23,156 nucleotides of DNA from a virus. The translations under genes and the position numbers were made by a program. The stretch lies in the IMG/VR virus record IMGVR_UViG_3300042907_000635, positions 1 through 23,156 of that record. One strand, written 5' to 3'. The notes below the pieces were generated by a model, which was not told the origin of the DNA, made no database searches, and saw only the letters and a list, made by a program, of their open reading frames with translations. Shown piece after piece: positions 1,209 to 3,424 of the stretch. The stretch's first letter is position 1. Each line of letters starts with the position of its first letter.

Positions 1209-1475
1209 CTAGCCCCCCACCGTAAAGGTGTACCCATGCCGGGCCAGCTCTTTTTGCATGGCCTCAACCTGGAGGGTGAGCTCTTTAAATTTCTTGGTTA
1301 GGATCTGAAGGCCACCGCGCCGGGCATCCTCGAGGCTTCTGCCAGACTTGGTTTTTTTGCCTGCAAGCTTTGCTTGTACTCGTTGCCATTTCCAGTACCG
1401 CACCCTGCGGCTAGAAACAGATTCTCCAGGAATTTCCTGGAAGACCGGGGCAGATTTGCCCAAAATCTTTTGCAT
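1209..1475 (-). CDS. Small basic coiled-coil protein (88 aa)
   Basis: The open frame extends upstream, but ATG 1475 is the likely start because AAGGGGA sits just before it and the upstream extension is low-quality sequence overlapping a structured leader. The 88-residue product has a very basic first half (SSRRVRYWKWQRVQAKLAGK) and a C-terminal heptad-like helix (LTKKFKELTLQVEAMQKELA), so it may form a coiled coil and bind nucleic acid. I recognise no family. It lies between the HTH excisionase-like gene and the zinc-knuckle HNH gene, in a position typical of small phage early or regulatory proteins. Confidence 0.55.
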   Translation of the reverse strand: MQKILGKSAPVFQEIPGESVSSRRVRYWKWQRVQAKLAGKKTKSGRSLEDARRGGLQILTKKFKELTLQVEAMQKELARHGYTFTVGG

Positions 1476-1568: not shown

Positions 1569-1598
1569 TTGACGGATTTGGGGAACGGGTGATAGAAT
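1569..1598 (+). promoter_or_regulatory. Predicted sigma-70 promoter with extended -10, plus strand
   Basis: TTGACG (1569-1574) is separated by 18 bases from TAGAAT (1593-1598), and TG two bases before the -10 gives an extended -10 (TGATAGAAT). The -35 matches consensus at 5 of 6 positions and the -10 at 5 of 6. It points rightward, against every gene in the window, and would start an RNA near 1605 that meets an intrinsic terminator at 1647-1683. This is a sequence prediction only. Confidence 0.5.
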
Positions 1599-1604
1599 AC
1601 CCGT

Positions 1605-1683
1605 GCCACCTGTAGCGGGTGCGAAGTCTGGGCCTCGGTCCAGGCGCTGGGCCTCAGAGCTGTAACTCTGAGGCTCAGTTTTT
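1605..1683 (+). ncRNA. Candidate small RNA, about 79 nt, antisense to the left-operon leader
   Basis: A strong-looking plus-strand promoter (TTGACG-18-TAGAAT with TG extension) predicts transcription from about 1605. The RNA would end at a 13-bp hairpin followed by TTTTT. Between the two there is GC-rich sequence able to form a further stem (CCAG-GCG-CTGG). No open frame of useful size fits. The RNA is complementary to the leader between the HTH gene and the 88-aa gene, so it could act as a counter-transcribed regulator. It contains no GGA motif, which argues against a CsrA-titrating RNA. I do not recognise an RNA family. Confidence 0.45.
1647..1683 (+). terminator. Intrinsic terminator, plus strand
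   Basis: CTGGGCCTCAGAG (1647-1659) pairs with CTCTGAGGCTCAG (1666-1678) over 13 positions, with one G-U wobble and a six-base loop. TTTTT (1679-1683) follows directly. Read on the minus strand the hairpin lies just after the HTH gene stop but has no following T run, so it looks designed for the plus strand. Its T run overlaps the TAA of the HTH gene. Confidence 0.65.
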
Positions 1684-1894
1684 ACCGCCCGGCTTTGGCC
1701 AACTTCACCTGGCTGGCTGTTCTTAGGTAGCTGTCGAGCTCTCCCGGGTGCCACACCCGTCTAGCTCCAATCTTTAGGCCACCCGGAAAACTACCAGCCG
1801 ATACCAACCGGTATAGGGTCCTTCGTGATATGCCGATCAGACGGCAAACTTCGTTGGGCCCATATAAAACCGGCAGGAGTTGGCTGCCTTCCAT
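1682..1894 (-). CDS. AlpA/excisionase-like helix-turn-helix protein
   Basis: This 70-residue protein has the MerR-like winged-helix pattern of the HTH_17/AlpA/excisionase group. LYGPNEVCRLIGISRRTLYRLVSAGSFP is the HTH, followed by GGLKIGARRVWHPGELDSYL, the wing and terminal helix. Such proteins bind att or promoter DNA and either direct excision with a tyrosine integrase or act as transcription regulators. The position directly downstream of the integrase gene supports an excisionase or directionality factor. ATG 1894 has a strong AAGGGGGG ribosome site. A candidate promoter lies in the 136-bp gap upstream. Confidence 0.8.
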   Translation of the reverse strand: MEGSQLLPVLYGPNEVCRLIGISRRTLYRLVSAGSFPGGLKIGARRVWHPGELDSYLRTASQVKLAKAGR

Positions 1895-2030: not shown

Positions 2031-3185
2031 CTATTCAAAAACAGAATCAATCTCCCTTCTAGACCTTACCGGGCTTAAATGTGCGTAGTGCTTGGAAAGA
2101 ATTGCAAGGCTTTTCCACCCGCCCATGCGTTGAACCAAGAGAATAGAAACCCCTTTAGAAAGCAGCTCGGTAGTGCCACCGTGGCGCAATGAATGAATCA
2201 CAGCCATTCCCTCCTCTGTCTCCCGCGGTATGTTAGCCTTTTTAAGATCTGCCCAAAAATTGGTGCTCAGGTTAATGGTTAAAAGCTTGTGGAATAAAGG
2301 AGCCCCGCTTGGGCATTCCTTCACTAGCTTTTTGAGTTTTGGAACCAGTCTGATGGGTATTGGTATCTGCTGGTCAATTTTAGTTTTGGCATGCTTGGCC
2401 CTCAGCATTAGCCACGGAGCCAGTGGGTTTTCAATGTTCAAGTCATTGGCAGTAATGGCAAGTAAGGCACCGCGCCTAGCAATCGTCGCAAAGGCCAAGG
2501 CATAAAAGATATTTCTAGGCCATGGGGCCTTGGCCTCTAGAGAATCAGCCTCCGCTCTGGTCAGGGCCCGCCTTGGGTGCTTTGCCTGGAAAGTAATGCT
2601 TGGGAAGGTGGGAATAGATCTCGCTATATTTTGCTTTTGAAGCCATTTATAAAAGCTTTTTACTTGTATCAATCTCTGCTGCTTAGAGCCCGTCGAAAGC
2701 TTTAATGAATCAATCCACCCCTCAATCTTCTTGCTGGTGAGTGAGTGGATTCCGTCCATCGTTTTTATCCCGAGCTCACCCAAGGCCCTACCCAACAGGG
2801 CCCTTACTTCTGAGACATATACATCTGTACACCCACTCCTTGCGCGGGAAGCTACAAACCTTGCAACTAAGGCCGGAAAATTTTCCCCAGCCTCATCAAT
2901 CGGGAATTCAAGCCCGGCCCTGATCCGCTCTTGTTCCGTCCGTTTTTCCGCTAAAATTCCCTCGGATGCCTGCTTGTCTCGGCAAAGCTTGATTGTCTTG
3001 GTGCTGCCATCAGCCATTCTCAGCTGGGCATACCATTCAGGCCTTGTGATGCTCACCCGTCCATTGGCATTCAGATCCACCCATACATCTTTGCCATCCA
3101 CCCTTAGCTTGGCCTGAGCCTTGCCTTTGTGGATCCTCTCGGGGGCATCTGGTGGAACTGCTCTGGTTTCCAGCTTCTTAAACAT
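2031..3185 (-). CDS. int: Tyrosine recombinase / phage integrase
   Basis: With the start at ATG 3185 the protein is 384 residues. The N-terminal part (about 20-95) is an arm-binding-like region, and a SAM-like core-binding domain runs about 100-190. The catalytic domain (205-384) holds the full set: Arg237 in IARRGAL, Lys267 or 269 in AKHAKTK, His331 and Arg334 in HSLRH, Trp357 in GGWKS, and nucleophile Tyr367 in SKHYAHL. It catalyses site-specific integration and, with a directionality factor, excision. I prefer 3185 because the 24-residue upstream extension is encoded by the repeat-bearing attP-like DNA and MFKKLETRAV is a natural N-terminus. No strong Shine-Dalgarno supports either choice. 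The start faces a candidate attP, and the HTH gene follows. Confidence 0.92.
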   Translation of the reverse strand: MFKKLETRAVPPDAPERIHKGKAQAKLRVDGKDVWVDLNANGRVSITRPEWYAQLRMADGSTKTIKLCRDKQASEGILAEKRTEQERIRAGLEFPIDEAGENFPALVARFVASRARSGCTDVYVSEVRALLGRALGELGIKTMDGIHSLTSKKIEGWIDSLKLSTGSKQQRLIQVKSFYKWLQKQNIARSIPTFPSITFQAKHPRRALTRAEADSLEAKAPWPRNIFYALAFATIARRGALLAITANDLNIENPLAPWLMLRAKHAKTKIDQQIPIPIRLVPKLKKLVKECPSGAPLFHKLLTINLSTNFWADLKKANIPRETEEGMAVIHSLRHGGTTELLSKGVSILLVQRMGGWKSLAILSKHYAHLSPVRSRREIDSVFE

Positions 3186-3194
3186 GATCGGCCA

Positions 3195-3389
3195 CCGTGC
3201 AATCCATTGTGCAATCAAAGTAGGCCCATACTGGCATACGATGGCACATGGTGGCAATAGTTGGCCGTAAAAAAAGCTTATTTTTTAGTGTTAAGCTAGA
3301 AAGGAAATCACCAATACACATACTGCAGAAACTAGGTAAGATGCTAGAAAACAGGCTTTTTTGTGTTGCCGTGCAATGGGTAGTGCAAA
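3195..3389. other. attP: Candidate phage attachment site (attP) with paired arm repeats
   Basis: The 322 bases between the int start and the next gene hold no gene. They contain two copies of CCGTGCAAT-N5-GTGCAA in the same orientation: 3195-3215 (GTGCAAT at 3197 and 3209) and 3369-3389 (GTGCAAT at 3371, GTGCAAA at 3383). Between them is an AT-rich segment with the inverted repeat AGCTTA-N11-TAAGCT at 3275-3297. Paired arm sites on both sides of an AT-rich core, next to int, is the known layout of lambda-type attP sites. The assignment is inference, and the crossover point cannot be placed without the host junctions. Confidence 0.5.
3275..3297. repeat. Inverted repeat AGCTTA-N11-TAAGCT
   Basis: A perfect six-base inverted repeat with an 11-base T-rich centre lies in the middle of the region between the two GTGCAAT repeat pairs. 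It could be the integrase core site or an operator in front of int. The sequence alone does not decide. Confidence 0.45.
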
Positions 3390-3424
3390 AGTAAAAGCCC
3401 CCCGGCATCCATGCCGGAGGGCTT
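3389..3424 (-). terminator. Intrinsic terminator of the late operon
   Basis: AAGCCC-C-CCGGCAT (3395-3408) pairs with ATGCCGG-A-GGGCTT (3411-3424) around a two-base loop, with one internal mismatch. Reading leftward the hairpin is followed by TTTTACTTTTG, a suitable T-rich run. It lies about 85 bases after the last late gene (stop at 3508) and before the attP-like region, so it separates the late genes from int. Confidence 0.75.

Follow-up and report, generated by a model that had tools for sequence, protein, structure and literature searches.

A conserved predicted small RNA gene abutting the excisionase stop codon in uncultivated temperate phages

The OOP RNA of phage lambda promotes decay of cII mRNA by RNase III, the cuts falling outside the coding region (PMC5869508, PMC12197685), and overlaps the cII codons by 52 bases (PMC5869508). 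The sar RNA of P22 and the aQ RNA of lambda likewise act as antisense RNAs in cis and tune the choice between lysis and lysogeny (PMC12197685). Here we describe a locus of related layout in the virus record IMGVR_UViG_3300042907_000635, analysed over a stretch of 23,156 nucleotides (positions 1 to 23,156; the window). Like OOP with its pO-oop-tO arrangement, the predicted RNA is short, has its own promoter and intrinsic terminator and is read against an early operon. Like OOP also, it ends at the 3´ side of the gene for a small DNA-binding regulator, which is cII in lambda and the excisionase gene xis in the window.

The predicted unit occupies positions 1569–1683 of the plus strand. A motif scan places a sigma-70 type promoter, kept among relatives, at 1569–1598; it comprises the -35 element TTGACG (1569–1574), an 18-nt spacer and the -10 element TAGAAT (1593–1598) preceded by TG, and matches 10 of the 12 consensus bases. 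The RNA gene itself is placed at 1605–1683 on the grounds of folding, conserved pairing and an asymmetry of G-U pairs, giving a predicted transcript of 79 nt that starts at G1605 with GCCACC, ends in TTTTT and forms three consecutive hairpins. Hairpin 1 (1607–1621), seen in folding and alignment, pairs CACCU with GGGUG around a variable loop, and hairpin 2 occupies 1626–1645. Hairpin 3 and the adjoining U tract (1647–1683) constitute an intrinsic terminator with arms at 1647–1659 and 1666–1678 (13 bp, one of them G-U, around a 6-nt loop) and a T run at 1679–1683, the final bases of which touch the xis stop codon (1682–1684). Counted from the -10 element, the terminator hairpin begins at +49 nt and the T run at +81 nt. 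An earlier note on this DNA had pointed out both the TTGACG promoter with its 18-nt spacer and the 13-bp hairpin with TTTTT some 80 nt further on; both are present, and the two hairpins upstream of the terminator refine that picture.

This arrangement is not readily produced by chance. Folding of 1604–1685 (82 nt, plus strand) yields -47.4 kcal/mol with a z-score of -5.4, equalled by 0 of 200 shuffles. When a 215-nt region was subjected to 4000 dinucleotide shuffles and searched for a promoter of at least 10/12 followed by a strong terminator, the two were never found in order (0/4000), the promoter alone occurring in 11 and the terminator alone in 31. On both strands of the entire window, this is the sole promoter scoring at least 10/12 and the sole promoter-terminator unit of such quality. 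The earlier note recognised no known RNA family, and the search of the window against Rfam 15 agrees, with no family at the gathering cut-off and weak, chance-level matches of unrelated kinds at a relaxed threshold; neither tRNA nor tmRNA was found.

The 79 nt that immediately follow the xis coding region are exactly complementary to the RNA. The xis gene (1682–1894, minus strand) encodes a 70-aa excisionase/AlpA-type helix-turn-helix protein (Pfam HTH_17, 2.3e-11, and Phage_AlpA; PHROG excisionase), and upstream of it on the same strand lies int (2031–3257), encoding a tyrosine integrase (Pfam Phage_integrase, 2.7e-13); xis together with int is the proposed antisense target. Between int and the genes upstream, a strong terminator-like hairpin occurs on the minus strand at 3395–3424. 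The first gene after the RNA locus (1209–1475, minus strand) encodes an 88-aa protein that matches no Pfam or PHROG family, and the complement of the RNA lies 130–208 nt upstream of its ATG. A further hairpin at 1489–1510, just upstream of the ribosome-binding site of this gene, is kept with an altered stem in the relatives L003, L111 and L112 described below; the L111 copy, read on the plus strand, is followed by CTTTTT and is terminator-like. A few genes downstream of xis there is a CsrA-like gene (357–563). All gene candidates examined in the window are on the minus strand, bearing out the statement that the RNA runs opposite to the genes.

Searching viral contigs (IMG/VR) at both the protein and the DNA level gave seven other contigs in which the same integrase clade stands beside an AlpA/HTH_17-type excisionase, such that the sample consists of eight contigs in two families, all of them IMG/VR viral contigs. 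Family A includes, besides the window, 3300034102_001630 (L002, L004), which is near identical to it, 3300006030_000124 (L003; xis 86% and int 55% identical to the window), and 3300042907_000764 (L111) and 3300020151_000966 (L112), both with 53% identity in xis and 57–58% in int. Family B, with integrases about 41–42% identical, comprises 3300042937_000482 (L109, L113), 3300035680_000158 (L114) and 3300027754_000642 (L115). The first of these (L108–L110, 42912 bases) seems to combine parts of two related phages: an ATPase near its end shares 91% identity with the L003 ATPase, and apart from it there is an int-xis set with about 41–42% identity to that of the window. The hosts may be Planctomycetota.

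No relative was seen to keep the flanking genes and lose the element. In all seven, a structured RNA follows the xis stop on the opposite strand, with the T run meeting the stop codon, although in L114 the contig ends inside the RNA promoter. Seven copies, the window included, have a complete promoter, and in each of them the spacer measures 18 nt; the -10 element is separated by 6 bases from the RNA 5´ end, which reads GCCACC in family A and GCCAACC in family B, and the predicted RNA size across the seven complete copies is 79–82 nt. TTGACG is unchanged in every family A copy, and the -10 element appears as TAGAAT, TAAAAT, TACAAT or TATACT. In family B the RNA sequence differs, but the spacing, the type of 5´ start, the size and the three-hairpin plan recur. 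At the level of motifs, an own promoter and terminator opposite a phage gene or transcript are thus found in both families.

Wider searches added no further members. A covariance model searched against 43 sources matched only family A copies convincingly, family B being beyond its detection. When viral contigs were scanned for a 16-nt core of hairpin 2, and genome contigs for one of 23 nt, every match outside the known relatives lay in an unrelated context. A search for phages sharing only the ATPase returned 34 loci, three of which were relatives already known. Among 20 records scanned for int and HTH_17 (19 of the ATPase-sharing loci and L107), only L076 had both above the cut-off, in a different layout and without the RNA element. 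In collections of phages and plasmids, the integrase had no more than weak matches.

Base pairing compared among the copies speaks for an RNA. Pairing in hairpins 2 and 3 was examined across four distinct, divergent family A sequences, giving 84 pair cells. Standard pairs were found in all 84 and none was broken; both sides had changed in 17 cells, as compared with 8.5 expected when partners are shuffled. Shifting the partners by 1–3 columns lowered pairing to 29–52%. Hairpin 2 contributes two compensating pairs and nine G-U cells, and hairpin 3 seven compensating pairs. RNAalifold, run on an earlier alignment, found both-side changes in 11 of 25 pairs. G-U pairs fill 14 of the 84 cells and A-C pairs none, and a minus-strand consensus loses most of hairpin 2. 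Since the 14 G-U pairs would be A-C mismatches on the minus strand, it is the plus strand that would make the RNA, and this asymmetry, the promoter and the T run together assign the predicted RNA to the plus strand.

The window and L003 agree at 91% of the RNA positions (70/77) but at only 43% of the four-fold degenerate sites of int and 50% of those of xis, so selection holds the locus. The differences within the RNA fall mostly in loops, and the terminator loop CTGTAA (1660–1665) is the exact reverse complement of TTACAG in L003; this loop is nearly inverted between L113 and L115 as well. Taken together, the comparisons strongly support the prediction of an independent, evolutionarily conserved small RNA gene on the plus strand.

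Two inverted repeats at the promoter are possible operators. The dyad ACGGGT-N8-ACCCGT (1585–1604) lies around the -10 element; its arms change together in L003 and L111 (pairs seen among the phages, the window included: ACGGGT/ACCCGT, ACCGG/CCGGT, ATCG/CGAT), and it is broken in L112. The dyad CTGGC-N13-GCCAG (1540–1562) lies upstream of the -35 element, with arms CCGGC/GCCGG in L003 and GCTGC/GCAGC in L111 and L112. In family B, GGCAAC-N14-GTTGCC spans the -10 element of L113 and may play the same part. From these dyads we infer that a DNA-binding protein could set the timing of RNA synthesis.

What, then, would the RNA act on? The plus-strand small RNA of the earlier note has strong comparative support, but its proposal that this RNA is complementary to the leader of the operon for the 88-aa protein, the HNH protein and CsrA, and may serve there in a lysis-lysogeny or csrA control circuit, fares less well. 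In its favour, family A has only untranslated sequence between the RNA and the 88-aa gene (the ORF is conserved in L003, L111 and L112), the terminator scan places none on the minus strand between xis and that gene, and a CsrA-like gene follows in every relative whose region was examined (L003, L111, L112, L113 and L115, in some with scores below the Pfam cut-off). In family B, however, the RNA and the early operon are separated by a divergent spacer and by an ORF of 68 aa on the plus strand. This ORF lies before the RNA promoter (L109 8797–9003), its protein is identical in L113 and L115 and has no Pfam or PHROG match, and visual inspection suggests that it might be of the ribbon-helix-helix type; an early gene of the same family (L109 7135–8013, minus strand) is similar to RNA polymerase sigma factors (PHROG 351, E 3.4e-8). 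The leader in family B therefore probably has no complement in the RNA. As pairing of the RNA with csrA start regions is also no better than chance, there is no support for control of the csrA operon leader, which we consider distinctly improbable.

Only one neighbour of the RNA stays the same in both families, namely the xis stop codon. For this reason, and given the probable lack of a complement in the early leader of family B, the int-xis mRNA is favoured as the target. We propose that the RNA, made from its own promoter and terminator, is cis-antisense to this message just past the xis stop, an explanation that we hold to be the likeliest and about equally apt to be right or wrong, and that it probably dampens the integrase-excisionase message. 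Assuming that minus-strand transcription runs through the RNA complement, the RNA would pair with the 3´ untranslated part of the message whenever transcription passes xis, and the duplex would lead to cleavage and decay of the message, in the manner of OOP on cII. As long as the RNA is made, the level of excisionase would be low, as perhaps would readthrough into the early operon, and stable integration would be favoured.

A purely cis-antisense RNA would have no need of the sequence conservation seen in two of its parts. Across family A, neither GCCACC at the 5´ end nor GCCUCGG in the loop region of hairpin 2 varies, while the stems drift and that of the terminator is largely replaced; family B has GCCAACC at the matching position. 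The two 5´ ends resemble each other modestly. Between 2 and 76 of 3000 shuffles reach their anchored alignment score, the number varying with the sequence compared, and the score thus ranks in the top 0.1–2.5%. These elements may point to a second partner. One reading, unlikely but a serious contender, is that the RNA acts in trans, with GCCACC and the loop CCUCGG of hairpin 2 binding host or phage mRNAs or a protein, and that its position at xis is incidental. However, no consistent target emerged from a seed search for complements of the RNA 5´ end near phage start codons or from duplex energies against the start regions of neighbouring genes, and this reading would not explain why the RNA abuts xis exactly in either family. 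A combination is also conceivable, if rather unlikely, in which a dual-function RNA is cis-antisense to the int-xis message and a trans regulator through GCCA(A)CC and the hairpin-2 loop, across phages with integrases about 41% identical, its promoter being controlled by a phage DNA-binding protein.

The terminator by itself could shield xis and int from opposing transcription, in which case the short RNA would be a by-product and, in family B, the terminator would also end the transcript of the 68-aa ORF. It is the best preserved structure of the locus and abuts xis, and its stem has been replaced with pairing kept and its loop inverted between the window and L003, all of which suits such a role. 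We nonetheless find insulation improbable as the main function, for it does not explain a dedicated conserved promoter, the compensating changes in hairpin 2 or the conserved 5´ end, and no gene-like plus-strand ORF precedes the terminator in the window. Least credible of all is that the locus acts solely as DNA, as an attachment site or operator cluster that gives no RNA. The nearby int and xis and the dyads would fit, but paired changes that keep G-U on one strand only, the same one that bears the promoter and U tract, would not be expected of it.

If the proposed antisense action on the int-xis message is correct, there is an RNA arm in the integrate-or-excise decision of an uncultivated temperate phage group, and the OOP-like layout, with an antisense RNA abutting the end of a regulator gene, occurs also outside the lambdoid phages, at the gene for an excisionase. 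Rfam has no family for the RNA, which through its covariation and strand signal is a solid candidate for a new one.

Among known systems, the CsrB/CsrC-type sponges come to mind because the window likewise has a CsrA-like gene a few genes away. The RNA, however, is dissimilar in structure and contains no GGA motif for CsrA in 1605–1683, and a CsrA sponge was rejected on the latter ground. With sar and aQ it would share the class of phage cis-antisense RNAs, but sar blocks initiation of ant translation and aQ acts on Q, whereas the complement of the RNA in the window follows a stop codon. The likeness to OOP goes further, with these differences: the RNA reaches only the xis stop codon, its complement being untranslated where OOP overlaps codons, and the proposed target is the int-xis message. 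In its presumed working, the RNA is most like OOP, and it may fairly be labelled a new RNA family of an already known kind.
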